This document shows positions 9,171-37,074 of a stretch of 37,776 nucleotides of DNA, in pieces (the stretch's first letter is position 1; each line of letters opens with the position of its first letter). The stretch lies in the IMG/VR virus record IMGVR_UViG_3300009127_000324, positions 1-37,776 of that record; one strand, given 5' to 3'. The notes beneath the pieces were generated by a model. It had not been told where the DNA came from. It worked only from the letters and a program-made list of their open reading frames with translations, and did not search any database. The DNA is from a virus. The position numbers and the translations under genes were made by a program.

Positions 9171-9177
9171 CTCAGTA

Positions 9178-9549
9178 CTAAACTCCCAGGTCCTGGCGGA
9201 TGACGAGCTCGCCGGCCCACTTGCCCCCGCGGCCCCGCTTCCAGGTCGATCGGCCGGAGACGTAGCGCATGTTGCTGAAGGCCGTCGAAAACGTGTCCGT
9301 GAAGGTAAAGGTGTTCGCTGCGTAGTCGATGGTGTCCTCGATGAAGTCGACGAGGTCGGAAGCCTGACTGTTGGTCACACTCTTGAACCGCAGCCTGAAT
9401 ACAAGATCCGGATCGCCCGTCTCGGAGACACGTGGGACACCGCCTCCGGAGATACGCGTGACCTGGCGCGGCTCCGCCTCGGATCCGTAAGGAGACAGCG
9501 GGTCCGGGAGGGTTGCGGTCACTGCGTCTTTGGCCAGCGTGATGCTCAT
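9178..9549 (-). CDS. Small distal-tail (Dit-like) protein
   Basis: This is a 123-residue protein whose start overlaps the tape-measure stop (ATGA at 9549-9546). The sequence is beta-rich (LVFRLRFKSVTNSQASDLVDFIEDTIDYAANTFTFTDTF). Size and order (tape measure, this gene, hub) match small distal tail or minor tail proteins that cap the tube. The assignment rests on synteny more than on motifs. Confidence 0.6.
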   Translation of the reverse strand: MSITLAKDAVTATLPDPLSPYGSEAEPRQVTRISGGGVPRVSETGDPDLVFRLRFKSVTNSQASDLVDFIEDTIDYAANTFTFTDTFSTAFSNMRYVSGRSTWKRGRGGKWAGELVIRQDLGV

Positions 9550-12500
9550 CGCCTCAACCTCGACAGCCGGCCGTCGTGCCAGCTGTCCTCGATCAAGGGC
9601 TCCAGGGTTTCCTGATACATCCGCTTGATCTCGGTCTTCGACTGTGCGGATCCGCCCTGGACGGTGACGTTGACCACGACCTGCGGACCGGCGCCGGCCG
9701 GCGAGATTGTCTCGCCCCCGTGGATGATGGCCTGCATGGGCCGGCCGACCGGACCCGGGACCCGGGTGGGCACGTCCACGTCGAAACTCGGCAGTCGGGC
9801 CGCCCCGGCCTGTCCTACGATCTGTCCCAGGGCCACGAGGTTGGCGAACTTGAATGCGCCGGTGAATCCCTCGGTAAGGATGCGGTGTTTGAGCATCACC
9901 TCCGTCAGGTCGCCGATGCGCTTCAACTCGACCTGCAGCTCGATCGTCTGCCGATCGATGGCGCTCACCACAGGCGTGAGGTCCGCGGCGATCTTCGACA
10001 TCTGGACCACCTGGGTCGTGCTGGTTCCGAAGCCGCCGCCGTGCAGCATGCCCGCGACCGTAGCCAGGGCCGTCAGCATATCCTCACGCAGCAGACCCAG
10101 GGCACCCACGACGTTGTCCGTGTTGACGGTCCCCAGCTCATCACCGACCACGCTGGCCAGCACTTCCAGCTGTGTGCCGAAGTCCGTCGACAGCTGGGTC
10201 AGCTCACGCGCCAGCGCCGTTTCGAAGGTTGTGCCGAGATCCTGCGTCGCCCGCTCCACGGCCGCGATCTGGTCCAGCGTCGCCTGTTCGTTGGCCTTCC
10301 GGGCTGCCTCGAACTGCTCTCTCAGCTTCCCCAGTTCGGCCTCGCCGGCAGCCGCCTCCGCGATGCGCAGGTATTCGATCTCCCGCTGGAGCTCAGACAT
10401 CACGCGCGCCATCTCCAGGGGATCTGTCCGGGCGCCTGTCAACCGGCCGGCGAAGCTCTGCCTGAGCGCCGACTCCTGGATGTCGAACTGCAGGCGCACG
10501 TAGCGCAGCGTCGCCTGGCGCTGGGCCTCCCACGCATCATCCAGGGCACGCTGCACCTCGGCCGCCTGGTCATGGATGGCATCGATGAGCTTCGCAGCCG
10601 TCTCCTCCCGGGCCTTGATCTCCGCCTCCGCAATATCGCGCTGCAGGTCGGCGATCAGCTCCTGCAGGCGCCACTGCTCGCGCGTCGGGATGCCTGACAG
10701 ATCCGACGCGATTGTCCCGGCTTCGTCAATCAGGATTCCGATGCCGCCCATGGATTCCCGCAGGAGCTCGAATCTCCTCGCGGCATCCTGCAGACCTTCC
10801 AGCCGGACCACGTGGCTGTATTCATCCATCGCCTGCGAGAAAGAGAACACGCCTCCGGAGGCCGCACGTTCGATCGCTTCCAGTTGCTCGGCCAGTAGCT
10901 CGAACTCCATTCTCACGCTGGCCACCAGGCGGTTGCTCGAAGACAGCTCCCAGAGCGTGTCCCGGAATCCCTGCAGGTCGACTGTGAACTGATCCAGATT
11001 CACGTGCTGCGCGAAGTCGACGTCGAACGCATTCCCGAGAGGCCCGATCAGATCCTTCTGGATGATCTCCTCCCACTTGGCTCGGAACAGGCGCCGCTGC
11101 TCATCGAGGGATTCCTCCTGCAGCGATCGCGCGTACGTGCCTGAGGCGTCGGCCGTGTCGCGGATCGCCTCCTCGAGATCGCGCATCTTCACCCGCAAGG
11201 CATCTGCCTCTGCCTGCATCGTCTGATAGATCGAGATCCCCATCCCGATCGCACTCACCACGCCGCCCATAATGCCGGCGATGCCCTGATTCCGAGTCTT
11301 GGTGTCTCCCAGCAGCTTGATGCCGATCGAGACCGACTGGACCGCGTCGATGGCCATTCGCGATTCGGCAGAGAGACCGGCCAGGCGCTCCGTCAGCAGG
11401 CCCATCGAATAGGCTGCGAGATCTGACTGGTCCTTCACCTGGCTGACGTCGGCGTCGAACAGAAGGAGGATCCGGCGGACGTCCGGCTGGTCAAGCATGC
11501 GCTTCCGATGCTCCATGGCGGCCCTGACCAGCTCGGTAATCTCCTCTTCCGTCCGACCGGTCTCACGAGCCTTATTCGTCAGGGAGATCTTGAAGCTCAG
11601 ATCTTCGGCTTCCCGGATCTTCTGGCGATCGCCGACAGCTTTGGCCAGGTCCACCTCGAGTCGGGCCTGGTGCTCGAGCCATTTCTCGCCGGCCAGCCGC
11701 AGCTGCTCCTCAAGGGCATCCAGATCGACATCGACCAGCGAGGGTACGTCCAGGGTGAATCCTCCCGTCGTTGGCGTATGCAGTTTCTGGAGCATCTCGG
11801 TGGCCTTCTGCGCCTCATTCCTGGCAACCTGTAGCTCAGCGGAGAGTGCTCGGTAGAATCCCAGCGTTGAGTCCCGTCCCTCGGGATTCGCAAAGGACCG
11901 CATATTCACGGTCTCTCGGAGGATCTCATGAAATCTCCGTGAGCCGGTATCCATCGCATCGAAGGCTGTAAGGGACGTGGATCCTAGGCTACCGACCAGG
12001 CCCGTGAGCTCCTTCGTCTTGAGGATCTGCTGGACGAGCTCCTTCGTCACATCCCGAAGGGTCAGCCTGCCCTTCTCGATCACCGTGGTGTACTGCTCTG
12101 ACTCCTGCGTGTGATGACGCCGGGCCAGGGCCAGCTCTTGGGTGGTCTTCAACCACTTCTCCTCATCGTTGGCCACCGCACGAAGCCGCTCCGCCTCGTA
12201 TTCCGATACGAACCCCGACAGCATCGGCTTCCCTCGAGCCTGATCCGCCTCGTCCATCTTCTTCCGCGCTTCGAGTGCCATCTCGATCGATCTCTTGGCA
12301 CCCTCGGCGGCATTGGCCAGGCCTTTGGTAATCCCGGCCAGGAGCTCCATCACCGCATCTACAGGTCCCGAAGTCAAAGCTCCGACGCCGCGTAGAAGCT
12401 TGTCGAACTGCGCCGCCAGCTGTGCGGATTGAACGACGGCATTCTGTGTCGGAGCTGGGAGCGTCTCCATCTTCTCGGCCATCAGCCCGATGGCTCTGTT

Positions 12501-14716: not shown

Positions 14717-16021
14717 TCAGTACTCTCCGATCTTCAGGATCTTGCCCGTCTTGGGGAGCGCGGGACCCTCCTTCCGCTCGCGCGCCCGGCGCTGCTGTCG
14801 GGACTCTTTGCTGGGCACACCGCCCCCCCTCTCTGGTCGGTTGCCCAGGATGCCCGACAGGTGCTCCTCGTTGGCCACCTCGACGCTGGGAGCCCAACCG
14901 TCGGCCTTCAGCTTGGCCTTCCGCTCCATTTCCTGCTTGCCGGACAGATAGACCTTCAGGCGCTCCGTCAGCTCCCCGTGGTCGGTACCGGACTGCTCGA
15001 TGAGCTTCAGCATCTCGGCTGCCGGCACGTTGTCGGGATCCCGGTCGATCAACTCCAGGAGGATCTTCTTTCCTCGCTCGATGCCCGGGGGACCCAGACC
15101 GAACACGCACAGGATGGTCCGGTTCACGTAGCAGATGTATCGATCCGGATCCTTCTCCAGTGCGCGCTCGTAGTAGTCGAGGCCGGTGTGCACCAGGCGC
15201 ACGTCGGGCCGCTTCGCCTCGATCGTCATCGCCCAGGCCATCTGGCAGATCTTGCCCTTGACCTCCCAGTAGCGGCCAGCGATCGACACGGCGTCGATGG
15301 TGTCGGGATTGACGCGATCCAGCAATTGTGCCGCTTTGGCCGCATCCTTGTCGTGGGCCGCCTTCTCGGCCAGGTAGGTCGCCGGGATCGGCGCTGTAGG
15401 GTCATCCTGGTAGTCCAGCTGCAGCAGCGCATGGTAGTAGTCCCGCTTCGCCCCCGAATACCGGCCACGGTGGTAGAACCGCACCGGCACGCGCTTCTGC
15501 GTCCAGTCTGCTGTTGGGAACTCCAGCTGCTCGTGCACGCGGCCGGCGTACTGCGCGCCGATCGACCTGCGGAGCACGCGATTGCGCCAGTGCCGGGAGC
15601 AGAAGTCTCCGAACCGCTCGTCGTAGTGGAACGTCGGCTGGTAGGTCATGTCCACGAACATGTGGCACGACACCAGGTCGGCGTCATCGGCACAGAGCTC
15701 GTCCAGGAGGAGCTGCCCGTCGTCGGTGTCGAGCTCATCGTCGGCATCGAGGAACAGGACCCACTTTCCGGAACAAAGCTCGAGGGAGGCGTTGCGGGCC
15801 GCGGCGAAGTCGTGCGTCCACGCGCGGCTCTGCAGCACCAGCCTTGTGTTGGTCCGGTCCGCAGCCTTCCTGGCGAACGCCTCGGTACTGTCCGCCGTCC
15901 GCGAATCCAGGACGAGGACCACCTCGTCCGCGATCGTTCCAACGGACTCGACGGTGCGGGCGATGTGGTCCTCGGCATCCCGGGCGATGATGGCTGCTGA
16001 CAGCGTTGTGGATTCAGCCAT
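14717..16021 (-). CDS. GT2-family glycosyltransferase with TPR-like C-terminus
   Basis: This is a 434-residue protein. Residues 1-230 form a GT-A fold: nucleotide-binding LSAAIIARDAEDHI at the start, FAAARNASLE, and the metal-binding DXD motif in LFLDADDELD (92-95). The remainder is helical with TPR-like repeats (YYERALEKDPDRYICYVNR; KILLELIDRDPDNVPAAEML) and a basic tail. This GT2-plus-TPR plan is known from protein glycosyltransferases such as SunS-type enzymes. It is embedded in the tail operon directly after the major tail protein gene, so a virion protein is a plausible acceptor. The acceptor and sugar are unknown. Confidence 0.8.
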   Translation of the reverse strand: MAESTTLSAAIIARDAEDHIARTVESVGTIADEVVLVLDSRTADSTEAFARKAADRTNTRLVLQSRAWTHDFAAARNASLELCSGKWVLFLDADDELDTDDGQLLLDELCADDADLVSCHMFVDMTYQPTFHYDERFGDFCSRHWRNRVLRRSIGAQYAGRVHEQLEFPTADWTQKRVPVRFYHRGRYSGAKRDYYHALLQLDYQDDPTAPIPATYLAEKAAHDKDAAKAAQLLDRVNPDTIDAVSIAGRYWEVKGKICQMAWAMTIEAKRPDVRLVHTGLDYYERALEKDPDRYICYVNRTILCVFGLGPPGIERGKKILLELIDRDPDNVPAAEMLKLIEQSGTDHGELTERLKVYLSGKQEMERKAKLKADGWAPSVEVANEEHLSGILGNRPERGGGVPSKESRQQRRARERKEGPALPKTGKILKIGEY

Positions 16022-16060: not shown

Positions 16061-17116
16061 CTACTGCAGGTAGCTCGCCTGGGTGTTGTAGACCCAGGCC
16101 TCCACCGACCCGTGGGTCGCGTCCTGCTTAATGCTGGTGGTGATGTCGACCGTCATCCGGCCTCCCGCCGCACCCCGCGGACGGCCGACGTTGTACATCA
16201 GCTTGGGAAACACCAGGATGAAGCCGTAGTAGTAGCCTTCCGCCCCGATCTGCTGGCTCGAGTTGTGGCACTTGATCTGCATGGCCAGGGGCGTCTGGTT
16301 GTTGAGATAGTTGAGGTGGGTGGCGTCCTCCAACAGCAGGGTGGCCGAGATCTCCTGGGACCGCTCATCCCGCTCGGCCCGGCCCATGGTGATGCCGGAG
16401 CCCCAGGAGTAGAGGAAGTCGAGGTCCGAGTTGTTGTTGTACGCCCACCGGAAGCTGTCGATCGACGCCCTGATGTCCGATGGGGTGCCCCCCAGGTCGT
16501 TGACGCCCTTGCCCTGGGTGGGCGTGGATCCGTCGTAGGCGCCCGTCGAGAGCCAGCACACCGAGTCGCGCGTGTGGAGGCTGTTCTCCGACTTCTCACT
16601 GACGGAGGCTGAACCCGTGGTGAATTTCCCGCTGCCGTAGACCTGCGCGGACAGCGAGAAGAAATTGCGGCGGTCACCCGACAGCTCGAACGAGTCGACG
16701 AAGCATCCGCCGTATTTACGCTGCAGGCCCGATATCAGGAGCTCCTCGACGGTGAAGGTCTCGTGCTCATAGGCGCTGGTGTCCGGTGAGATGGTATGGA
16801 GCCGCGCCGTGGTGGCGCCGGCCGGCGTGCTGTGCGAGTGGCTGCCCAGACCCGCCGCGAGGATGAACGCCAGCGTATGGGGCTTGACCTTCGACTGGGC
16901 GATGGCGGCCTCATAGCGCCGGACGGACACCTCCTGGGTCGTGGACTCCTCCTCGCCGCCGACCAGGTCGCGGTCGTCTTCAACCTCATACTCCACGCCT
17001 CCGGGCTCGCCGGAGACCCGCAGCAGGCTGTCGACGGCCTCATAGCTGCCCAGCGACGCCTCCTTGTTTGCGGCGCTGACCATGAACTTCCGGTTGCGAC
17101 CGCGTGAGCTGGCCAT
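16061..17116 (-). CDS. Major tail (tube) protein
   Basis: This is a 351-residue protein between the tail terminator gene and the G/GT region, the standard place of the tail tube subunit. It is rich in beta-forming residues and in Ser, Thr and Gly, with many Asn (YNNNSDLDFLYSWGSGITMG), and carries an Ala/Gly-rich segment (LAFILAAGLGSHSHSTPAGATTARLHT). It follows its upstream neighbour by one base. It is long for a simple tube protein, so it may carry a surface domain and could be the target of the adjacent glycosyltransferase. Confidence 0.8.
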   Translation of the reverse strand: MASSRGRNRKFMVSAANKEASLGSYEAVDSLLRVSGEPGGVEYEVEDDRDLVGGEEESTTQEVSVRRYEAAIAQSKVKPHTLAFILAAGLGSHSHSTPAGATTARLHTISPDTSAYEHETFTVEELLISGLQRKYGGCFVDSFELSGDRRNFFSLSAQVYGSGKFTTGSASVSEKSENSLHTRDSVCWLSTGAYDGSTPTQGKGVNDLGGTPSDIRASIDSFRWAYNNNSDLDFLYSWGSGITMGRAERDERSQEISATLLLEDATHLNYLNNQTPLAMQIKCHNSSQQIGAEGYYYGFILVFPKLMYNVGRPRGAAGGRMTVDITTSIKQDATHGSVEAWVYNTQASYLQ

Positions 17117-18696: not shown

Positions 18697-19677
18697 TTAC
18701 GCCTTCAGCAGGCGCCGCACCTGGGCTGCGTTCACATACGACCCGTAGCGGTACCAGCCGACGAAGTCCTGCCCGCGCATCGTGATGTCGAAGTCGGCCA
18801 GGATCTCCATGTTCAGGCGGTTCCCGAACTTGCTCTTCCGGCCCGGTGCCACCAGGTGGCCCAGGTAAGCGGCCTCGGCACCGGTCGTGGGCACCAGCCG
18901 CACGTTGTAGGCCAGCATCGGGCTGCTGGTATCCGGCACCACGGTGCGCATGGCCTTCAACAGGCGGGCGTAATTGTTGACGTGGGTGTAGAGCAGGAAC
19001 TGGCTCTGGGCGTTGACCCCGAGACCGGTGTCCTCGTTCTCGACCACGATCTCGGCCACACCGTCGTTGATGGTGTTGATGTCCTTCTCGGCCGTGTTCG
19101 CACCCGTCGTGTCGTAGGCGACGTCATCGGTTATCGCCGTGATCAGGCCATAGTGCAGCGTGGCCTTCTGCTCCGACTCCTCGAAGCGGAACTTGGTCGC
19201 CGCGTCCTCGATGTTCCACCACTCCTGGTCGTCGAACCAGTTCTGGAGGAACCCGATGCCGGCGCCGTAGGTGTCGATCGGGATGTTGATGCGCGATCCG
19301 GACACCCCGTAGATGCGGGCCCGGTGGCCGTCCGGCACGCGCTCGAACGTCATCCCCGAGGAGAAGCCGATGATGTCGAACGAGGACCGGGGTGTGCCCG
19401 TCAGGTCGACCTCCGCAAAGGCCAGGACCCAGCCCATGTCCATGTCGCCGATGTCGTCGGCGTAGACGTCGATCACGTTCTGCACGTTGTTCCACGCCGA
19501 CGTGTTGGTGTGGGCCGTGAACTCGCCGATCTTGGCCAAGATCTGGCCCCGCCGCTGAATCACGGCCCGCTCGGTCTCCAGCGGCGCCGTGATGAACTCG
19601 CCCAGCTTCGCCATGAAGCGGGCCTGGTGCTTCTTATCCTTCGGGTTGAATCCCGCATAGGACTTCAGAATAGGCAT
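18697..19677 (-). CDS. Major capsid protein
   Basis: This is a 326-residue protein with a strong GGAGGTG ribosome site. It follows the protease/scaffold and decoration genes and precedes the connector gene, the canonical major-head slot. Features include an N-terminal helical stretch, RVPDGHRARIYGVSGSRINIPIDTYGAGIGFLQNWFDDQEWW in the middle, and a C-terminal FDITMRGQDFVGWYRYGSYV typical of the last capsid strand region. It resembles Mu gpT-like members of the HK97 fold. No pro-region is obvious, so the separate scaffold is probably used. Confidence 0.85.
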   Translation of the reverse strand: MPILKSYAGFNPKDKKHQARFMAKLGEFITAPLETERAVIQRRGQILAKIGEFTAHTNTSAWNNVQNVIDVYADDIGDMDMGWVLAFAEVDLTGTPRSSFDIIGFSSGMTFERVPDGHRARIYGVSGSRINIPIDTYGAGIGFLQNWFDDQEWWNIEDAATKFRFEESEQKATLHYGLITAITDDVAYDTTGANTAEKDINTINDGVAEIVVENEDTGLGVNAQSQFLLYTHVNNYARLLKAMRTVVPDTSSPMLAYNVRLVPTTGAEAAYLGHLVAPGRKSKFGNRLNMEILADFDITMRGQDFVGWYRYGSYVNAAQVRRLLKA

Positions 19678-25785: not shown

Positions 25786-25824
25786 AAAAAGGCCCCACCT
25801 GGACTTAAGTCCAGATGAGGCCTT
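25786..25824 (-). terminator. Rho-independent terminator between accessory block and terminase genes
   Basis: On the minus strand AAGGCC ... CTGGACTTAAGTCCAG ... GGCC is followed by TTTTT. The stem combines a 6-bp outer part with a 16-base perfect palindrome at the tip. It would stop leftward transcripts from the accessory block just 19 bases before the terS start. With no obvious promoter between it and terS, a late antiterminator may be needed. A GCCC-TTCG-GGGC tetraloop hairpin lies about 20 bases earlier. Confidence 0.8.
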
Positions 25825-25869: not shown

Positions 25870-26811
25870 TCAGTTGTCGGAATCTACAACCGGTTTCGTC
25901 AGCTCTCGGTCCAAGCGCTTGAGCAACCGGTTGGTTCTACGTCTCAGCTGATTCTGATACCTCCTGAGCTTCTCGTGTTCCTCCCGCGTCAGCGTCTTCC
26001 GATGCCGATACTCACGCAGATTCACTCCGCTCTCCCCCACAATGTAGCTCGCTTTGGCGTACCGGTCAAGACTTAAGTACGGTCGCAGGTCCTCACCCAC
26101 GGTGTAGGCCCCCCGCTTTGCGGCTCTCCGGAAGTCTTCGTAGCCCGTCCGCTCGTAGTAGTGGCGGAGGCACAGCTTGTTGTGCGGATGGTCCATGTGC
26201 TCGACGATCGGGCCACCCTTACCAACCGGCTTCACGATGCACAGGTGCCAGCCGGCCTCCCGGATCTTCCGGCAGAACTCGGTGCCGAAGAAACCCATCA
26301 CCTTGTTCGTGACCGGATACCCGCAGACCTGACGAAAGGCCTTCCTGCGCACCATGCAGCATCCGTGGGCCAGGTTCGCGCGGTAGAGCAGCCGAAATCC
26401 AGTATACTCCGCGATCGCCTTCACCTTGTCGTTGCGCTGATCGTCGTGGGCGCTGACCAGGCCCAGGTTGGGATTGGCGTCGAAAGCCTTGAGACACGCG
26501 TCCCGCCATCCTGGATGGAAGAGAAAGTCATCGTCGGAGAGCATCACGAACTCGTTCCTGTTGCCCGCGTTGCCGAACCAGAAGCCCGTGTTCCTTCCCG
26601 TCCCGCAGCCGACGTTCTTCTCCAGCGAGAGGTGCGTGAAGTCGGTCCTGTCGAAGCTCTGACCGTAGCCCTCGAGCAACGTCGACGTCCCGTCGAAGGA
26701 GGCATTGTCCACCACGATGACGCGATCGCGGTCGTCTTTGGTGGCCAGGAGCGAGTTCACGCAGCGCTTCAGATACTCCGCGCGGTTGAAGGTCACGACG
26801 ATGATGTCCAT
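25870..26811 (-). CDS. Glycosyltransferase, GT2 family (GT-A fold)
   Basis: This is a 313-residue enzyme. MDIIVVTFNRAEYLKRCVNSL is the nucleotide-binding start, VIVVDNASFDGT the second conserved element, and MLSDDDFLFHPGW carries the DXD motif (Asp-93 to 95) that binds the metal and sugar nucleotide. GFFGTEFCRKIREAGW is the acceptor-side ED-like region. The C-terminal 60 residues are basic and helical (RRYQNQLRRRTNRLLKRLDREL). It is the last gene of the accessory block, before the terminator. The sugar and acceptor are unknown. Confidence 0.85.
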   Translation of the reverse strand: MDIIVVTFNRAEYLKRCVNSLLATKDDRDRVIVVDNASFDGTSTLLEGYGQSFDRTDFTHLSLEKNVGCGTGRNTGFWFGNAGNRNEFVMLSDDDFLFHPGWRDACLKAFDANPNLGLVSAHDDQRNDKVKAIAEYTGFRLLYRANLAHGCCMVRRKAFRQVCGYPVTNKVMGFFGTEFCRKIREAGWHLCIVKPVGKGGPIVEHMDHPHNKLCLRHYYERTGYEDFRRAAKRGAYTVGEDLRPYLSLDRYAKASYIVGESGVNLREYRHRKTLTREEHEKLRRYQNQLRRRTNRLLKRLDRELTKPVVDSDN

Positions 26812-26823
26812 AGGCAGAAGGCC

Positions 26824-27483
26824 TCAGTAGTCATAGGCGCCGACGATCCAGGAGCCAACACGGGACCGGGCCTGAGACCGGTACGCTCCCAGCTGCGCGT
26901 GGATCCGGCGGTGGTAGGCATCCGCGCTGTAGTGTCGCAGGTGGTAGCGTACGCTCGGTCGAGTGGGCACCGTGACGATGACTCGGGAACCGGGACCCGC
27001 GGCCTGACCCATCGCGTTACAGATTGCTATGTCATCTGTCAGGTGTTCCAGTGTCTCGCAGCAGACGAGGGTCAGTGGCTGCCGGCACAGCGCGGCGTAG
27101 CCCGTTACCCGCTCGGGCGTGATCTCCTTGCAGACACAGCGCCAGCCGCTACGGTCGGTCAGCTTCATGTCCGCCTGGATGCCGAACCATCCCTCGAATC
27201 CCCTCCTCGCGCGCTCGGAGAAGTCCAGGCCGGTGTATTCGACTTCCCCCCGGAGTTTGCCGTCCTCGTGCATGAAGAGCAGGTAGGCCAACACACCAGG
27301 ACCGCAGCCGATGTCGAACACGCCAAATCCTGCGGGATCGTCCATCCTCTCGACCACCAGGTCCCGGACCTTGTGCCAGAGCTCGTGGTGGTTCTTCAGC
27401 TGGACGTACTTGCCGTGCGGCGTATTCGGGTGGGTCGTGTACTGCTGATCCCAGAAGTCAGGGGTGTTGGGGTTGCTGGTCAT
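26824..27483 (-). CDS. SAM-dependent methyltransferase (class I)
   Basis: This is a 219-residue protein. The start at 27483 (MTSNPNTPDFWDQQY) was chosen because GAGG precedes it; the frame extends to 27546. Motif I is FGVFDIGCGPGVLAYLL, followed by an acidic loop after strand 2 (VEYTGLDFSE) and CCETLEHL, matching small-molecule and lipid or glycan methyltransferases rather than DNA enzymes, because no NPPY-type motif is present. It overlaps the preceding gene by 26 bases. It may methylate a glycan made by its neighbours. Confidence 0.8.
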   Translation of the reverse strand: MTSNPNTPDFWDQQYTTHPNTPHGKYVQLKNHHELWHKVRDLVVERMDDPAGFGVFDIGCGPGVLAYLLFMHEDGKLRGEVEYTGLDFSERARRGFEGWFGIQADMKLTDRSGWRCVCKEITPERVTGYAALCRQPLTLVCCETLEHLTDDIAICNAMGQAAGPGSRVIVTVPTRPSVRYHLRHYSADAYHRRIHAQLGAYRSQARSRVGSWIVGAYDY

Positions 27484-27703
27484 CTGATTCCTCACGAAGC
27501 GACATGGTGGCTGGCACCGACACATCGAGTTGTACGATCCCAACATCGACCCCGTTCCCGATCAGCACACGCGGCCGTCTCCTGGCCTGAAGGACAAGCA
27601 CGAGATTCTGAGTGTCCCGGGTCATATCTACGCCGTCACGAGTGATCTTCACCTGCCCATTCCCCCGATCGAGGGTATCGAACTCAATCGCCCACTTCGC
27701 CAC
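27458..27703 (-). CDS. Small beta-rich protein, unknown function
   Basis: This is an 81-residue protein with a GTG start at 27703, GGAG 9 bases upstream. The sequence alternates charged and hydrophobic residues (VKITRDGVDMTRDTQNLVLVLQARRRPRVLIG), suggesting a small beta-barrel or binding protein. It overlaps the start of the methyltransferase gene and lies 3 bases after the CgeB-like gene. No family is recognised. Confidence 0.6.
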   Translation of the reverse strand: MAKWAIEFDTLDRGNGQVKITRDGVDMTRDTQNLVLVLQARRRPRVLIGNGVDVGIVQLDVSVPATMSLREESDDQQPQHP

Positions 27704-27706
27704 AGG

Positions 27707-28654
27707 TCAGCTCCTCTCCTGAATGCACTGCCACAGCAGCGCCACACGCTTCTCGTAGGTGTGATGCGCCTGTGCCCGCCGGAAGGCCGCCTGGCGGACC
27801 TTCTCGCGCTCCTCCTCGTACATCGTGGTCAGGCGGGCATGTACCACATCCGCAAAGGACTCAGCCGCTTCCGGATCCTCCCACTCGTCATCCCAGGCGA
27901 TCACCTCTCGCTCAGGATCGAACAGACCGGACAGCCCCGCGAAGTAGTTGCAGACGTAGAAAGCCCCGTTGCCTGTAGCCAGAAACAGCCGGTTGCTGTG
28001 GTAGCCGGCGCAGTCCGGATACGACACCCCCACCGACACGGCGGCATTGCGGTAGAGATTCGGCATCTCGGCTGTGATGTCAGCTTGCTCCTCGAGGCCG
28101 CCCGGATTCAGGCACCGGAATCTTGTGCCGAACCGACTCCTGAGCTCACTGAACACAGCCCTCCGCTCCCGGTGGAACTCGGGATGGCCTTCCGATCCGA
28201 TGTGCAGGATGTCGCAGGCCCAGTCCGGATCCGCCGGGGGCAGCTCCTCCAGGGCCAGGCACCCCTGCGGCAGCCACATCGTCTGCTCAGCACGTAGTCC
28301 CCAGGCTCGAGCGTAGTCGGCCAGCCAGCCCTGGCCCGTCATAGCCAGCAGATCCAGGCGCCCCGTCAGCTCCCGCGGCTCGGGCTTCCGGAGGTCGCAG
28401 AACCACAAGGCCGTGAAGGCGCCCCACTCCTTCGCCCGATCCAGCACAGAATCCGTCAGCGCGTCCATGACGCAGATCAGCACGACGTCGGGACGGAAAT
28501 CGGTGAGCTGGGCCAGGATTCGCGGCTCCGTGGATTTGCGCCAGTCCAGGACCTGGAGCTGGACGTCGGGCAGATCTCGGAGCGCCTGCTGCAGGCCGAT
28601 CCAATGATGGGCATACCAGTGCAGATGGAAATTGCCGATGGCGGAGACTTTCAT
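27707..28654 (-). CDS. CgeB-like glycosyltransferase (GT-B fold)
   Basis: This is a 315-residue protein with the plan of CgeB/spore-maturation glycosyltransferases. A Rossmann-like N-terminal half (MKVSAIGNFHLHWYAHHWIG ... DVVLICVMDAL) is followed by a C-terminal donor domain ending in the family-typical RLFLATGNGAFYVCNYFAGLSGLFDPEREVIAWDD and a helical tail (RRAQAHHTYEKRVALL). The DILHIGSEGHPEFHRERR segment is also typical. It starts in an ATGA overlap with its upstream gene. The donor and acceptor are unknown. Confidence 0.8.
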   Translation of the reverse strand: MKVSAIGNFHLHWYAHHWIGLQQALRDLPDVQLQVLDWRKSTEPRILAQLTDFRPDVVLICVMDALTDSVLDRAKEWGAFTALWFCDLRKPEPRELTGRLDLLAMTGQGWLADYARAWGLRAEQTMWLPQGCLALEELPPADPDWACDILHIGSEGHPEFHRERRAVFSELRSRFGTRFRCLNPGGLEEQADITAEMPNLYRNAAVSVGVSYPDCAGYHSNRLFLATGNGAFYVCNYFAGLSGLFDPEREVIAWDDEWEDPEAAESFADVVHARLTTMYEEEREKVRQAAFRRAQAHHTYEKRVALLWQCIQERS

Positions 28655-28872
28655 TCCTGTCCTCCCTGGACCTCGCCTATGAATGCCTTCATCGCCTCCT
28701 GATAGACAGGCAACCGTGCCGCGAAGGAGACCAGCGCCACGAGGACCTCTGGCTCCAGATAGATCGTGTTCGACGGATCGCCGGGACGTCCGTTCTCCGT
28801 CGTCAGCATGACGGCCCGGCCATCCACGTCCGCGTAGACGCTGTCACCCAGGTAGGTCTTCTGTTCACTCAT
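28651..28872 (-). CDS. Small conserved phage protein
   Basis: This is a 73-residue protein starting MSEQKTYLGDSVYADVDGRAV at 28872. The sequence KTYLGDSVYADVDG...LTTENG is of a kind often met in phages and mobile elements next to unrelated genes. It is followed by SNTIYLEPEVLVALVSF. It overlaps the previous gene by 8 bases. The function is unknown. Confidence 0.7.
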   Translation of the reverse strand: MSEQKTYLGDSVYADVDGRAVMLTTENGRPGDPSNTIYLEPEVLVALVSFAARLPVYQEAMKAFIGEVQGGQE

Positions 28873-29152
28873 CGAAATCCTCGCAGTCCATCGTGTCAAC
28901 GATGTGGTCCAGTAGGGATCGCAGCTCGGCGTAGCGCTCGGGCTCCTCCCCTTCGTACATTGCCTTGAGTGTCGAATCCAACCCCGCTACCTGCCACTGT
29001 GCGGACCGGTGGGCGGACATCGCCTTGCCTGCAGGGTTGCAGGTCACCGACATCCAAGCCCCCGGTCCGTTGCGCAGAATCACGATGTGCTCTTCACGCT
29101 GGAGGCGCCGGATCAGAGCGCGGCCGGCGATGCTGTGTGGGGAGTGCTTCAC
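28865..29152 (-). CDS. Hypothetical small protein
   Basis: This is a 95-residue protein with a GTG start at 29152, sharing a GTGA overlap with the methyltransferase stop. It is mixed in composition, with an acidic C-terminal half (YEGEEPERYAELRSLLDHIVDTMDCEDFDE). No family is recognised. Coupled overlaps on both sides support it as a real gene. Confidence 0.6.
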   Translation of the reverse strand: MKHSPHSIAGRALIRRLQREEHIVILRNGPGAWMSVTCNPAGKAMSAHRSAQWQVAGLDSTLKAMYEGEEPERYAELRSLLDHIVDTMDCEDFDE

Positions 29153-29799
29153 TGGGTTGGCTTGACGGCCAGCAGAATCACGAATCCCACCATCGGGTCC
29201 GTGTCCAGGTAGGAGAGAAACCGAACGTCCTGCAGGGGCAGGATGTTCAGGTTCGGGTTGCGGCTCTGGTTCCAGGCCTGCGATACCGTCCAGCCGGCCC
29301 CGACCAGCAGGTTGTAGAGCTCCGTCGGCCGGTATTCCTTCCGATGGAACTTCTTGCCCGACTTCGAGGAAAGGGGATTCGGGGAGGAGATCAGCAGCAT
29401 CCCGCCCGGGCGCACCAGGTCGTGGAAGGTCTGTACCACGCGGACCCCGGCTCCCTCGTCGAGGTGCTCGATCCCCTCAAGGCAGACCACAGCATCAAGC
29501 GGCAGCAGCCGTTCGTTCAAGTAGATATCCAGGAGATCCTGCGTGAGGAAACGCGGCTCCGGGTATCGGGATCGAGCGTAGGCGATCGCATCGGCATTGT
29601 TGTCGATGCCGATCACCGACCGGTGTTTCTGCGCCAGCACAGCGGATCCGTAGCCTGTGCCGCAGGGAGCATCCAGGACGGTGTAGGTGCCGTTGAGTGC
29701 CTGGTCAGCCAAGTAGTAGCGGGCAAAGTGCAGCCTCTCAACGCCTCGGGGCGATGCCCCCGGGACCATCCGCTCCCCGGTCCAGTCAAGAGACGTCAT
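29149..29799 (-). CDS. SAM-dependent methyltransferase (class I)
   Basis: This is a 216-residue protein. Motif I is TVLDAPCGTGYGSAVLA, then VIGIDNNADAIAYAR, VCLEGIEHL, and the C-terminal region RPGGMLLISSPNPLSSKSGKKFH ... EYRPTELYNLLVGAGW, which is typical of Methyltransf_11/UbiE-like enzymes acting on sugars or lipids. The start overlaps the sulfotransferase stop, so sulfation and methylation genes are coupled. It probably acts on the same product as the neighbouring glycosyltransferases. Confidence 0.8.
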   Translation of the reverse strand: MTSLDWTGERMVPGASPRGVERLHFARYYLADQALNGTYTVLDAPCGTGYGSAVLAQKHRSVIGIDNNADAIAYARSRYPEPRFLTQDLLDIYLNERLLPLDAVVCLEGIEHLDEGAGVRVVQTFHDLVRPGGMLLISSPNPLSSKSGKKFHRKEYRPTELYNLLVGAGWTVSQAWNQSRNPNLNILPLQDVRFLSYLDTDPMVGFVILLAVKPTQ

Positions 29800-30518
29800 C
29801 GATACACCTCGTCATCGAATCCCAGGCTTCGCGGCAGCCCCTTCACCACCGACAGCAGCTGGCGGTTCATCGCGTCCGTCCACTCCCCGGGATGCGGGAA
29901 TAGGGCCTGCCGGCCGGGAGGATTGGCGTTGTGGATGTCGGCGGCGGCGTGGACCTCGGGATCCGGATCAATCCCGTAGAGCCTGGCGATCTCCTCCGCG
30001 CGGGGATAGATGTCCTGTGTGCGCACCATCATCCAGCTCTCGTCAGGAATGCTCCGCACAGCCTTCCGCACCAGGTTGTTGCGCCAGCTCCAGATCCAGG
30101 CTGTCCGCTGCATGTCCGACCAACCTTCCCACTTCGCTGCCGACGGACGTCCCCGATCCGGGCACATCGACCAGATGCCCCGGGTGTGCCACTTCCGCGC
30201 GATCGCGGAGCGGCAGAACTCGCGTGGATCCCTGATCAGCCAGACGAGGCGGAAGCTCGCGCCGGACAGGTCGGCCATCTCGGAGAGCTGGGGAATGAAG
30301 TGGATGTAGACGTTGTTCGACTCGCGCCAGATCTTCAGGTCCTGTCCCGACAGGTGCTGCATCATCGTGGCCAGCCGATCCGGCCACGGATCCCCCTGGT
30401 TGCCGGGCTGCCAGTACCACGGATGGATCAGGTCCCGGATCTTCCACTCGTGGTGCATGTCGAACAGCTCGGCCATCGTCTTCGTGCCGCAGCGGCCTGT
30501 GCCCGTCGCGATGATCAT
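29796..30518 (-). CDS. Sulfotransferase-like protein
   Basis: This is a 240-residue protein. The N-terminus MIIATGTGRCGTKTMAELF matches the 5'-phosphosulfate loop of PAPS-dependent sulfotransferases, and LVWLIRDPREFCRSA (91-105) matches the 3'-phosphate-binding motif (RDPRE...S). Such enzymes transfer sulfate from PAPS to hydroxyl or amino groups of glycans or lipids. The gene overlaps its neighbours on both sides (ATGA). A sulfotransferase is unusual in a phage and fits modification of the glycan built by the surrounding enzymes. Confidence 0.8.
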   Translation of the reverse strand: MIIATGTGRCGTKTMAELFDMHHEWKIRDLIHPWYWQPGNQGDPWPDRLATMMQHLSGQDLKIWRESNNVYIHFIPQLSEMADLSGASFRLVWLIRDPREFCRSAIARKWHTRGIWSMCPDRGRPSAAKWEGWSDMQRTAWIWSWRNNLVRKAVRSIPDESWMMVRTQDIYPRAEEIARLYGIDPDPEVHAAADIHNANPPGRQALFPHPGEWTDAMNRQLLSVVKGLPRSLGFDDEVYR

Positions 30519-30703
30519 AGCGGTCCTTCGTTCGGATCGAACAGACTGAAGGCCTGACCGTGGAGCTCGTTGTGCCGACGGATCAGCTCGTTGATGGCCA
30601 GCGTATTCCGGCGAGTCAGGCTGCCGGCAGCTTCCTCAACCAGCTCCCGGTCGCCAGAGAGCAGATCCTCCCGGAGGTCCTCGATGGTGATGGGTTGGAT
30701 CAT
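30515..30703 (-). CDS. Hypothetical small protein
   Basis: This is a 62-residue helical protein (MIQPITIEDLREDLLSGDRELVEEAAGSLTRRNTL...). Both ends form ATGA overlaps with neighbours. No family is recognised. Confidence 0.55.
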   Translation of the reverse strand: MIQPITIEDLREDLLSGDRELVEEAAGSLTRRNTLAINELIRRHNELHGQAFSLFDPNEGPL

Positions 30704-30927
30704 AGCTTCTCCTCGCTCCTCAGCTCCTCGATCACCTCATCCACGATGCCGTCTAGCCGCTCCTTCAGTCGCTCGAAGAACCGGTCGCCGATCGCCTCAT
30801 ACCGCTTGCTGGACCAGGACCAGTAGCAGGACCACTCGCCCTCGGGGTCGAACCGGAAGAGGAAGAGCGCCTTGTCTCCGTGATCGACACGCAGCCGGCC
30901 AACCTCTTTGAGCGTCCAGCGCTTCAC
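30700..30927 (-). CDS. Hypothetical small protein
   Basis: This is a 75-residue protein, aromatic and charged in its first half (ALFLFRFDPEGEWSCYWSWSSKRYEAIGD) and helical in its second (ERLKERLDGIVDEVIEELRSEEKL). It is coupled by ATGA overlaps on both sides. No family is recognised. Confidence 0.55.
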   Translation of the reverse strand: MKRWTLKEVGRLRVDHGDKALFLFRFDPEGEWSCYWSWSSKRYEAIGDRFFERLKERLDGIVDEVIEELRSEEKL

Positions 30928-31151
30928 AGTCGCTTCACGTCTGTGGCCTTCAGGCCCTGATGCGTCCGGACAAAGTCGACGATCTCCACCTGCTCGTCCG
31001 TCAGCAGCGTCCGAAACGGCCGGCCATCGCGCCGCTCGGTGCGCCCGTCGACCGCGATCGCACGGTAGTGAACGAAGTACTCGTTGCCGTCCCCATCGGT
31101 CAGGAAGCCGTAGCCCCGCTCATCGTTGAACCACTTCACCGTCGCCCGCAT
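30924..31151 (-). CDS. Cold-shock-domain protein (CspA-like)
   Basis: This is a 75-residue single-domain protein of the cold-shock family: MRATVKWFNDERGYGFLTDG carries RNP1 (RGYGF), and YFVHYRAI the RNP2-like motif, followed by a family-typical middle region. It binds single-stranded nucleic acid and could act as an RNA chaperone or antiterminator during infection. A strong GGGGGAGG ribosome site precedes it, unlike most neighbours, so it is probably highly expressed. The first half is close to standard; the C-terminal part is less so. Confidence 0.8.
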   Translation of the reverse strand: MRATVKWFNDERGYGFLTDGDGNEYFVHYRAIAVDGRTERRDGRPFRTLLTDEQVEIVDFVRTHQGLKATDVKRL

Positions 31152-31163
31152 CTTGCCTCCCCC

Positions 31164-32288
31164 TCACATGAAGCTCACGGCAGCATCGGCCTTCGAGCCC
31201 TTTCGGAACTTGCCCTCCAGGATGTCCCACGCCTGCCCCAACACGTCGCGCCGCACATACTTCGCGATCTCCTCGAGCCTGTGGATGCCGTCGGGCCACC
31301 CCCGCTTGGTCGCCAGGTGATAGAACCGGACCAGGTTGACTGCCGACAGCACGTCCAGCCGCTCCGGATCATCCACGTAGCGCAGCTCCCCGAGCGCTTC
31401 CGCGTTCAGCTCCCTCAGGTACAAGGCGTGGGCCCGCTCGAGGTGGGCGATCTGCTTCATCGGCTCTTCGGGATACCCTGGCCAGATGGTTTCGGTGGGA
31501 ATGCTAGACAAAACCTTGACAATGATCTTCCGCTCGCACTCGAGGGTCACCCGGTCCAGGTCCTGGGGGAAGAGGCGATGGCCGATGCCGCGGCGTCCCG
31601 GATGGTTGCGCGCCCGCACCGTGACCTGGTTGATCGCCCGGATCTTGTACTGGGACTGCCGGGCTGCGTAGGCCAGGCGGATCCACAGATCGTAGTCCTG
31701 TGCCCGCTCCAGTTTCTCATCGAACGGCCAGGTGGGTTGCCTCACGTCGGTCTCCAGCATGGCCAGGTCGACCATCAGGCTGTGCCGGAACATCACCGAG
31801 ATCCCGAAGAAACAAGAACCCACCAAGAGGCGCCGTAGGATGTGGTCCTGTGGGAAGGATTCGGCCTTCCACGCCGACAGTTTCTTCTCCTCGTTCTCCC
31901 CCCTGAACCACTCGGCGTCCGTATGCACGAGGCCGAGGGTTTCATCTTGCTCGAATTCCGACACAAGACGCTCCAGCCGGCCGGGATCGGCCAGGTCGTC
32001 ATCGTCGAAGATCCAGAGCAGATCGGCTTGGGCCTCGGCAATGCCTTCGTTCGCGGCCACCGACTTCCCCTCGTTCTTCTGCCGCCGAATGTAGCGGACG
32101 AAGGGCCATCGCTTCTGCGGGAACCACTCCCGGAAGACGTCCTGGACAAGCGGCTGCGTATTGCCCGTGGATCCGTCATCCACCACGATGACCTGGTCGG
32201 CGGGCCGGGTTTGCTTCGCGATCGAGATCAGCGATGCCGGGAGAAACTCGGCCCGGTTGTACGTGGGTATGATCACGGTGACGGTCAT
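31164..32288 (-). CDS. Glycosyltransferase, GT2 family
   Basis: This is a 374-residue protein: MTVTVIIPTYNRAEFLPASLISI, VIVVDDGSTGNTQ, then LLWIFDDDDLADPGRL with the DXD motif (Asp-95 to 98), and a C-terminal helical region of about 130 residues with TPR-like character (LERAHALYLRELNAEALGELRY). It shares the general plan of the glycosyltransferase at 14717-16021 (GT-A plus helical repeats). It is coupled to the next gene upstream by a 4-base overlap. The substrate is unknown. Confidence 0.85.
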   Translation of the reverse strand: MTVTVIIPTYNRAEFLPASLISIAKQTRPADQVIVVDDGSTGNTQPLVQDVFREWFPQKRWPFVRYIRRQKNEGKSVAANEGIAEAQADLLWIFDDDDLADPGRLERLVSEFEQDETLGLVHTDAEWFRGENEEKKLSAWKAESFPQDHILRRLLVGSCFFGISVMFRHSLMVDLAMLETDVRQPTWPFDEKLERAQDYDLWIRLAYAARQSQYKIRAINQVTVRARNHPGRRGIGHRLFPQDLDRVTLECERKIIVKVLSSIPTETIWPGYPEEPMKQIAHLERAHALYLRELNAEALGELRYVDDPERLDVLSAVNLVRFYHLATKRGWPDGIHRLEEIAKYVRRDVLGQAWDILEGKFRKGSKADAAVSFM

Positions 32289-32524
32289 CCTGCCCTCCCC
32301 ATCTGGACTTTGCGGATCAGCACCTTCTGGATTCTCGTGTAGGCCCGCCTCCAGGCCTTCACCGTGCCCCGGCCGCGCGGCAGGTGCTCAGGACAGACGT
32401 GGAAGCGGATCCCGTCGATCTCGAGGCAGCGCCACCCGCATTCGACGTCGGGCTTGCCCTCACCTTCAGCACCACACAGGGAACACACCATCCTCCCGAT
32501 GAAGAGCTCAGGCGTGACGCTCAT
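32285..32524 (-). CDS. Small zinc-ribbon-like protein
   Basis: This is a 79-residue protein starting MSVTPELFIGRMVCSLCGAEG at 32524. Cys pairs (CSLC; C...C) and HVCPEHL near the middle suggest a bound zinc ion. The C-terminal part is a basic helix (KAWRRAYTRIQKVLIRKVQMGR). The start overlaps the preceding gene by 17 bases. The longer frame to 32599 lacks a ribosome site. Nucleic-acid or protein binding is possible. Confidence 0.6.
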   Translation of the reverse strand: MSVTPELFIGRMVCSLCGAEGEGKPDVECGWRCLEIDGIRFHVCPEHLPRGRGTVKAWRRAYTRIQKVLIRKVQMGRAG

Positions 32525-33206
32525 CCCGATGTCCGGCGGCCTCGTATTCCAGCCTCCTGAAGTCTGCAAACCACTCACCTCCCTTGTGGCGCTCTTCATC
32601 CTGGTCCTTGAACTGGCGACAGGTCGCGCCCCCGAGATGCTCGACGAAACAGTCGAGGCAGATGGCCGTCCGCCACCCCCGCTGCAGGGCCTTCCAGATC
32701 AGGGCCGACTCCTGACCGTAGAACGGTGCGTCCACAGGGAAGCCGCCGGCGTCAGCCCAAGCAGCCTTGCGCACCATGAGACAGAAGCCGGAGACGTACT
32801 GGTCCATGAACACCAGGTCGCGATATGTCTCCGTCCCGAGCCCCTCCCGATCGGGCTTCTGCCACATCGGGTGTTGTACCGACTGCACGGATCCACAGTT
32901 GTCCGTCATCGGCCCCACGAAGCCCACCCTTTCCGATGTCCGCAGGGCCCGCTCCATCTGAGGGATTGTCCGGGCGTCCTGGAGAAAGCAGTCGGTATTG
33001 AGCAGGAGGAAAGCCGGATCCGGATCGTCTCCGAAATCGAACTCGGAGACCATCCGATTCCAGACCACGGCCAGGCTCTCATCCTGGATACCGTTGTCCA
33101 CCACCTGCGGGGGATACTCCTGCGGATGCGTGAGGCGCTCAACAGTCTCGAGACACTTGGCCTCGATCTCCGGGTTCTTGTAGAGGACCACGAAGATGGG
33201 GATCAT
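32508..33206 (-). CDS. Glycosyltransferase-like protein (GT-A, GT2 family)
   Basis: This is a 232-residue protein starting MIPIFVVLYKNPEIEAKCLET at 33206, where ATG overlaps the upstream stop (ATGA). Core elements are PQVVDNGIQDESLAV, AFLLLNTDCFLQD with a DXD-like NTDC at 70-73, FMDQYVSGFCLMVRKAAW and a C-terminal FVEHLGGATCRQF. These fit GT2/rhamnosyltransferase-type enzymes. The DXD-like motif lacks the first Asp, so the donor or metal use may differ. Confidence 0.75.
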   Translation of the reverse strand: MIPIFVVLYKNPEIEAKCLETVERLTHPQEYPPQVVDNGIQDESLAVVWNRMVSEFDFGDDPDPAFLLLNTDCFLQDARTIPQMERALRTSERVGFVGPMTDNCGSVQSVQHPMWQKPDREGLGTETYRDLVFMDQYVSGFCLMVRKAAWADAGGFPVDAPFYGQESALIWKALQRGWRTAICLDCFVEHLGGATCRQFKDQDEERHKGGEWFADFRRLEYEAAGHRDERHA

Positions 33207-35027: not shown

Positions 35028-35867
35028 TCACCGGTCGTAGTCCTGCAGCCGTTCGCGACTGCGCTTGGCCTTGTGCTCTTTCGCGAGACGCTGGGCCGTC
35101 TTGTAGGAGTAGTCCGCCCAGATGCGGAACGTGGGCCAGCCCGTCTTGCACAGGCTTTCGTGCTCCGGATCGCTCTTGCGGTTTTTGTAGGCGTCGCCGC
35201 CGTGCAGCCACATCACGCACTGATGGAAGTACAATCCCTGCTTCGTCGTCAGGGTCTCGTAGTCGGTCTGGATGCCCAGCGCCCGCACGCGCTCGAGCAG
35301 CGTCGTCTCGACAAGGACCTGCAGCGGCCCCTCGATCTTGGCGTAGCGCCAGCGGAAGGCCTTCGCCTTCAGGATCTCGGGTATCCCGTACAGACAGTGG
35401 TTCGGCGTCCGGGCGCCCTGACAGATCTCGATCGTGTCGTCCCGGCCGATGTCCATCTTGCTCACGAGATCCTCGAAGGCTTCCACACCGGCCTCCACAT
35501 ACTTCCGCTGGCTGTAGGCCGAGCCCTGGAAGTTTTGTACAGAGACTTCGACACAGTCGAACTCGTCGGTGTCCGTGCGGTAGCCGCCGATCAGCACGCC
35601 GCCGACCAGGGACCCCCAGCCGGCATCATCGATCTGCACGATGGGTTGTTCCGCCTTCGGCACGACCTCACCCTCCGTCGCTTTCTTCGCGATGTGCACG
35701 GTGCGCAGGTCCTCGGGCGACAGACCGTCCAGCTCCTCCAGCTCGCGGTCATGGTAGCAGACCACGTCCGGCGGCAGGTCCTCGGGTGTCGGCACATTGT
35801 CCGGCAAGAGCCAGATGGTTTCTCCGAGGATTTTCGAGCGAATCGCAACGCGGTGGGCCAGGGGCAT
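35028..35867 (-). CDS. Conserved early protein, possibly nuclease/RNase H-like fold
   Basis: This 279-residue protein starts MPLAHRVAIRSKILGETIWLL; the start codon lies inside the 72-bp inverted repeat, which also supplies its ribosome site GAGAGGGGGAAG. The core QPIVQIDDAGWGSLVGGVLIGGYR (about 76-99) followed by acidic residues and a conserved GPLQVLVETTLLERVRALG could be an RNase H-like fold, but catalytic residues are not certain. The C-terminal part is basic. It sits in the early operon between DNA-related genes. I do not recognise the family with confidence. Confidence 0.6.
   Translation of the reverse strand: MPLAHRVAIRSKILGETIWLLPDNVPTPEDLPPDVVCYHDRELEELDGLSPEDLRTVHIAKKATEGEVVPKAEQPIVQIDDAGWGSLVGGVLIGGYRTDTDEFDCVEVSVQNFQGSAYSQRKYVEAGVEAFEDLVSKMDIGRDDTIEICQGARTPNHCLYGIPEILKAKAFRWRYAKIEGPLQVLVETTLLERVRALGIQTDYETLTTKQGLYFHQCVMWLHGGDAYKNRKSDPEHESLCKTGWPTFRIWADYSYKTAQRLAKEHKAKRSRERLQDYDR
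35534..35544 (+). repeat. Dispersed motif variant TTTGTACAGAG
   Basis: A [CT]TTGTACNGAG site inside the 279-residue early gene, in the same orientation as most copies. Confidence 0.4.
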
Positions 35868-35897
35868 GGGCTTCCCCCTCTCGGTACAAGAGTCAGC
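35826..35897 (+). repeat. 72-bp perfect inverted repeat, left copy
   Basis: These 72 bases recur without a mismatch as the reverse complement at 36991-37062. The repeat begins inside the coding start of the 279-residue gene and ends at the stop codon of the ParB-like gene. It holds the ATG, ribosome site and first 14 codons of the downstream gene and a CTCGGTACAAG motif copy (35880-35890). This copy looks native, because it joins two neighbouring genes in normal fashion. Confidence 0.95.
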
Positions 35898-36735: not shown

Positions 36736-37074
36736 CTATGCCCGGATTCCGGCGTCGTGCAAGAACTCCGCGAGCTTCGACGGGGTGTCGTAAGCGTCCA
36801 AGTTGCCGGGAGCACACAGATACGACTTGTGGTAGCCCTCTTCCTCGTCATTCAGCTCGAACGTGTCCCGCACGGCGGGCACGATCCGCGAAAGCTGCTC
36901 GGCACCCGGCCAGTTGTCCGCCTTGACCCATAGCCCCCCGAGCGCGCCGGAGTAGATGTCCGTCAGCCGGCGTTCCAGGGCATCGATCGCGCTGACTCTT
37001 GTACCGAGAGGGGGAAGCCCATGCCCCTGGCCCACCGCGTTGCGATTCGCTCGAAAATCCTCAGCTTGCGTCAT
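36736..37074 (-). CDS. Small early protein with in-frame 72-bp insertion
   Basis: This is a 112-residue protein starting MTQA at 37074, with AAGGAG 8 bases upstream. Codons 5-28 are the 72-bp repeat read in reverse (EDFRANRNAVGQGHGLPPLG...), and the following residues AIDALERRLTDIYSGALGGLWVKADNWPG look like the natural continuation of MTQA. Removing the 24 codons would give an ordinary 88-residue protein. No family is recognised. The C-terminal part is acidic and helical. Confidence 0.65.
   Translation of the reverse strand: MTQAEDFRANRNAVGQGHGLPPLGTRVSAIDALERRLTDIYSGALGGLWVKADNWPGAEQLSRIVPAVRDTFELNDEEEGYHKSYLCAPGNLDAYDTPSKLAEFLHDAGIRA
36991..37062 (-). repeat. 72-bp perfect inverted repeat, right copy
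   Basis: Exact reverse complement of 35826-35897, separated by 1093 bases. It lies inside codons 5-28 of the 112-residue gene and keeps that frame open. It includes the CTTGTACCGAG motif (36998-37008). On the plus strand it carries a copy of the ribosome site, ATG and first 14 codons of the gene at 35867. This copy looks like the inserted one. Confidence 0.95.

Follow-up and report, generated by a model that had tools for sequence, protein, structure and literature searches.

Mycobacteriophages are established to glycosylate their own virions with glycosyltransferases (GTs) encoded in the phage genome (PMC12363180, PMC11256854). Virion O-glycosylation is described for Che8, Corndog, and Myrna in work that passages of PMC11256854 and PMC12363180 attribute to Freeman et al. 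2023, and the GT genes of Maravista lie near the 3' end of its genome (PMC11256854), so that a distant gene position is compatible with virion modification. In Mycobacterium phage Lucky2013 (Omegavirus), a GT set with four GT-annotated genes comes directly after the capsid gene (L050 5002-9399, genes 15-21); from its sequence, gene 17, annotated as a glycosyltransferase, reads as a methyltransferase-GT fusion. Sulfotransferases have been annotated in marine and other phages, where their function is called unclear (PMC10580990), and entries in BFVD include those of S-SCSM1 and FoX4. Given that these phage sulfotransferases are on record, the initial annotation of the DNA studied here, which regarded sulfation by a phage as new, went too far.

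We analyzed a 37,776-base IMG/VR virus record (the window), which lacks end repeats and is therefore possibly incomplete. It contains an integrase gene (2236-3300), genes for the small and large terminase subunits, a weakly matched portal, a tail tube gene, and a weak profile match to a phage capsid at 18697-19677; with its integrase, the phage is temperate. The closest phage terminases share only 25-30% identity and belong to phages with very different hosts, so neither a host nor an actinobacterial origin can be claimed, and no comparable block was present in the stretches of those phages that we examined. We found no close relatives in IMG/VR of the sulfotransferase, the terminase, the methyltransferase at 29149, or the GT at 32508. 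Cultured phages gave no tblastn match to the sulfotransferase, the tape measure, the PF13524 GT, or the tail-adjacent GT, and a megablast search of phages with the right half of the window was likewise negative.

Like Che8, Corndog, and Myrna, the phage encodes soluble GTs, a capsid or tail-tube protein is the proposed acceptor, and the GT genes may lie away from the structural genes. In contrast to those phages, the window adds two methyltransferases and a sulfotransferase, an enzyme that the relevant passages of the citing papers do not mention, and the acceptor here is a candidate. With Lucky2013 the window shares a series of several GT2-type enzymes; however, the Lucky2013 set directly follows the capsid gene and has a kinase-annotated gene in place of a sulfotransferase. 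On checking, the idea that this 'serine/threonine kinase' is a hidden sulfotransferase was unsupported. The sulfotransferase of the window has its predicted fold in common with the annotated phage sulfotransferases mentioned above.

A glycan block with operon-like organization

Fourteen consecutive minus-strand ORFs, from 33206 to 25870, make up the glycan block (Table 1), and its enzymes sit where the initial annotation had placed them. The organization of the block is operon-like. Seven of its 13 internal junctions are exact 4-base overlaps; the initial annotation had described the genes as largely joined in this way. A strong terminator follows the block, ahead of the terminase small-subunit gene; the block is thus the end of an upstream unit and stands outside the structural operon. 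None of the block enzymes has a clear membrane segment (peak 19-residue hydropathy 1.63, versus 2.38 for a holin-like control), and we found no flippase, membrane GT, or polymerase for the block.

Table 1 Features of the glycan block and of the tail-tube region, in the direction of the minus strand.
Feature	Coordinates	Strand	Basis
Putative GT-A glycosyltransferase, 232 aa	32508..33206	-	Pfam PF13641 0.008, below cut-off; weakly supported
Small ORF, start uncertain	32285..32599	-	No family match
GT2 glycosyltransferase, 374 aa	31164..32288	-	PF00535 8e-33; PDB chondroitin synthase 1e-16
Cold-shock domain protein, within the glycan block	30924..31151	-	PF00313 6e-14
Small ORF	30700..30927	-	No Pfam match; 4-base overlaps at both ends
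Small ORF	30515..30703	-	4-base overlaps at both ends
PAPS-type sulfotransferase homologue, 240 aa	29796..30518	-	P-loop GTGRCGTK, residues 6-13; R96/S104; profile; fold
Class I SAM methyltransferase, 216 aa	29149..29799	-	PF13649 9e-14
Small ORF	28865..29152	-	No Pfam match
Small ORF	28651..28899	-	No Pfam match; weak match to a PHROG of unknown function
Glyco_trans_1_2 (PF13524) glycosyltransferase, GT-B type, 315 aa	27707..28654	-	PF13524 7e-15
Small ORF	27458..27703	-	No Pfam match
Class I SAM methyltransferase, 219 aa from an inner ATG	26824..27483	-	PF13489 6e-7
GT2 glycosyltransferase, 313 aa	25870..26811	-	PF00535 1e-21; PDB GalT1 2e-6
Intrinsic terminator	25789..25824	-	16-bp stem, T run, fold z-score -4.3
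Tail tube protein, candidate acceptor	16061..17116	-	PF18906 2e-10; 19% Ser+Thr
GT2 with TPR-like C-terminal part, 434 aa	14717..16021	-	PF00535 2e-17; TPR-S 4e-4, below cut-off

The initial annotation had counted three GT-A enzymes, a CgeB-like GT-B enzyme, and two class I methyltransferases free of DNA-methylase motifs, and had assigned TPR-like repeats to one of the glycosyltransferases. The GT2 enzymes at 25870 and 31164, the PF13524 enzyme at 27707, and the methyltransferases at 26824 and 29149 all pass the Pfam cut-offs, whereas the assignment of 32508-33206 as a third GT2 of the block is only weakly supported: tblastn finds Gordonia phage glycosyltransferases at ~1e-4 and a fecal phage record without annotation at 3e-5, and the single-sequence structure model has a pLDDT of 33. 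For the enzyme at 27707 the GT-B type holds, but NCBIfam gives no CgeB assignment. The TPR-like repeats were misplaced: no block GT has a TPR match at E<=1, and such a match occurs instead in the GT2 at 14717-16021, outside the block.

The methyltransferases are as first described, and neither has a DNA-methylase match in Pfam, although the one at 29149 has two weak PHROG matches to DNA methyltransferases (0.008-0.5). PDB relatives of this protein include several sugar N-methyltransferases; those of the enzyme at 26824 are of the UbiG type (0.001). A scan of the genome collection with the GT at 31164 found nothing closer than distant bacterial GT2 enzymes, which come from MAGs, are 29-35% identical, and give no hint of the host. 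GtrB-like PHROG matches of the block GTs are confined to the GT-A domain.

The sulfotransferase and its relatives beside capsid genes

Taken alone, the protein encoded at 29796-30518 has no sulfotransferase match in Pfam, PHROG, NCBIfam, or the PDB sequences. It carries an N-terminal P-loop of the 5'-phosphosulfate type, and a scan of IMG/VR with this motif yielded 28 loci, many of which encode proteins of ~200-260 aa. Pfam Sulfotransfer_1/3/4 matches were found in all ten of the P-loop relatives scanned, several above cut-off, and these matching relatives have the P-loop in common with the window protein. An alignment-based scan for further sulfotransferases gave the same set as the motif scan. 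R96 and S104 are invariant in 15 aligned sequences, in columns that played no part in selection; we take them to be the R...S 3'-phosphate motif of PAPS-dependent sulfotransferases. As a control for circularity, we deleted the motif region, left the window protein out of the profile, and scored the remaining part of that protein. It reached 23.1 bits, against at most 8.5 bits in 2,000 shuffles (rank 1), so the homology extends beyond the P-loop.

The AlphaFold model of the protein (pLDDT 71, pTM 0.73) leads to the same family: the first 34 ranks against the PDB are all sulfotransferases, at TM 0.4-0.6, with tyrosylprotein sulfotransferases among the best matches and heparan 3-O glycan sulfotransferases nearly as good. 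A direct search with the family profile also reaches solved sulfotransferases, but weakly (best 4e-4). Together, motif, invariant residues, motif-free profile, and predicted fold show a PAPS-type sulfotransferase homologue at 29796, as had been proposed. No gene for APS kinase or for other PAPS-making families was detected in the record.

In several of the relatives the sulfotransferase gene lies between a major capsid gene and a GT2 gene. IMG/VR contig L036 has a capsid gene at 8463-9980, the sulfotransferase at 9980-10639, and the GT2 at 10828-11937, and the order is repeated in L009, L011, L008/L022, and L021/L032. The same order appears in L044/L045, which were retrieved by capsid sequence rather than by the sulfotransferase motif. 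The capsids fall into five genotype groups that are 35-59% identical to one another, which means that the cassette has been kept through deep divergence. All nine cassette records tested encode exactly one Pfam GT2, the enzyme paired with the sulfotransferase.

The cassette also occurs in a cultured phage. In Salinibacter phage 15_4 (L049 8896-12037) the capsid, sulfotransferase, and GT2 are 15_4_12 to 15_4_14, all annotated as hypothetical. The sulfotransferase query matches 184 Salinibacter ruber M8 phage records and the capsid query 184 Salinibacter records, with adjacency read in one of them, 15_4. Compared with the window, these phages and the IMG/VR contigs have a homologous sulfotransferase family and a GT2 in one transcription direction; in contrast, they place two enzymes beside the capsid gene, whereas in the window two methyltransferases accompany the sulfotransferase and four or five GTs, at a distance from the capsid gene. 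In the open-licence literature we found no description of a capsid gene-sulfotransferase-GT cassette, and one may exist elsewhere; the Salinibacter mesocosm paper mentions neither sulfotransferases nor glycosylation.

Gene context varies in other records. L029, which belongs to another lineage and has a capsid of the SU10 type, carries a sulfotransferase gene next to a GT2 gene in the vicinity of its capsid gene, and L048 has the capsid gene followed by a GT2 and no sulfotransferase. On the viral contig L030 (1287-6818), two sulfotransferase-like and two GT2 ORFs lie close together. In L023 (4174-6568), whose capsid is 97% identical to that of L021, only a truncated sulfotransferase is present, and the next conserved gene follows without a GT in between; the two were apparently lost together, although an assembly error is also possible.

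Predicted virion glycan and competing readings

The GT2 at 14717-16021 is encoded directly after the tail tube gene. Its best relatives in the PDB are GmaR (2e-9) and SunS (3e-5). GmaR and SunS-type enzymes are soluble and glycosylate flagellin and bacteriocin peptides. The tail-adjacent GT resembles them in its GT2 sequence and has, in addition, TPR-like C-terminal matches that are below cut-off; however, the alignment spans the GT domain only, and its score against the SunS model of NCBIfam (2e-9) is far below the cut-off. We regard it as a candidate protein-initiating glycosyltransferase.

Our preferred reading, to which we give a probability of about 0.5, is that a soluble, cytosolic glycan-assembly set decorates the phage's own virion proteins with a methylated and sulfated glycan. 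The tail-adjacent GT2 would start the glycan by attaching a sugar, taken from a host nucleotide sugar, to a virion protein, for which the tail tube is the likeliest candidate, and the block GTs (two solid GT2 enzymes, the PF13524 enzyme, and the weak GT2) would then extend the glycan. The two methyltransferases would modify sugars with SAM, and the sulfotransferase would transfer sulfate from PAPS, most simply onto a sugar hydroxyl. All of the donors (nucleotide sugars, SAM, and PAPS) would come from the host. The glycan could benefit the phage by shielding the particle with charge or by altering the surface used in adsorption; acceptor, order of steps, products, and benefit are what we infer from the enzymes. 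The initial annotation had proposed a glycan that is built, methylated, and sulfated on the virion or on the host surface. That such a glycan is built and modified still fits the gene set best, with partial support. The virion is the likelier of the two targets, because the enzymes are predicted to be soluble, neither a flippase nor a membrane GT was found, a GmaR/SunS-like GT adjoins the tail tube gene, and capsid-linked cassettes occur elsewhere. Against a virion target stand the strong terminator that cuts the block off from the terminase and structural genes, the position of the block away from the capsid gene, and the low identity (only ~20%) of the window sulfotransferase to the capsid-linked ones.

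A rival reading is lysogenic conversion, in which the enzymes would remodel the host surface polysaccharide with sugars, methyl groups, and sulfate, blocking superinfection or hiding the lysogen. The phage is temperate, the block stands outside the structural operon, polysaccharide enzymes are among the matches of the GT2 enzymes at 25870 and 31164, and L026 encodes, besides a sulfotransferase, a methyltransferase of the FkbM type and an aminotransferase of the DegT type, a context like that of surface-polysaccharide loci. However, the membrane-anchored GT and flippase that characterize GtrABC-type serotype conversion are missing among the block enzymes, all of them soluble, and so is a polymerase. 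In addition, the block continues in operon-like fashion, with 4-base overlaps, from DNA-metabolism genes and is not next to the repressor, and the capsid-linked cassettes of other phages indicate the virion. We consider a host-surface target unlikely, but it deserves serious weight. It seems more doubtful still that the sulfotransferase acts directly on protein, for instance on tyrosine, with the GTs working separately: tyrosylprotein sulfotransferases are among its best structural matches, but the heparan 3-O enzymes match almost equally, so that the fold cannot separate the two, and the adjacency of sulfotransferase and GT2 recurs across lineages.

The proximity to DNA-metabolism genes, an exonuclease among them, would also fit hypermodification of the phage genome, with the GTs and the sulfotransferase decorating modified bases. 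A passage of PMC10829341 credits GT- and sulfotransferase-based base modification in phages to Iyer et al. 2013, and the cassette GT of L011 weakly matches a TET-associated GT (0.007, below cut-off). On the other side, the methyltransferases have no DNA-methylase match in Pfam, and no thymidylate synthase, TET/JBP, or TAGT family (PF00303, PF12851, PF20691) was detected in this possibly incomplete record, with a TET/JBP search that is weakly controlled (over the nine cassette records, no control genome gave a match). We think base modification very improbable. Equally hard to credit is a bacteriocin-like or other product, either a small molecule or a modified peptide, that would benefit the lysogen; SunS, which the tail-adjacent GT resembles, acts on a bacteriocin peptide, and the block has several uncharacterized small ORFs, but the family scans recognized no transporter, NRPS/PKS, or sugar-nucleotide biosynthesis gene.

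Proposed sulfated virion glycans in phages and further features of the window

If the virion glycan is the right reading, it may belong to a wider pattern. We tentatively propose, with somewhat less than even confidence, that sulfated virion glycans are a recurrent trait in several phage lineages, in which the capsid or tail would be coated, in this phage with methylation as well, and in which the sulfotransferase-GT set often lies beside the structural gene whose product it modifies. Such a trait would give phage sulfotransferases their missing function, and the placement of the sulfotransferase beside a capsid gene and a GT2 suggests what that function might be. The cassette in cultured Salinibacter phages makes it directly testable. 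If confirmed, sulfation would join glycosylation as a modification of phage particles, with consequences for adsorption, particle stability, and shielding, with the phage of the window as a more elaborate case that adds methylation and several sugars.

Elsewhere in the window, a perfect 72-nt inverted repeat (35826-35897 and 36991-37062), with arms 1,093 nt apart, covers the starts of two ORFs and is a candidate for an invertible segment or an assembly chimera. The product of the ORF at 4950-6503 (517 aa) consists of 29% glycine and may be a glycine-rich adhesin or a protein of the tail tip.
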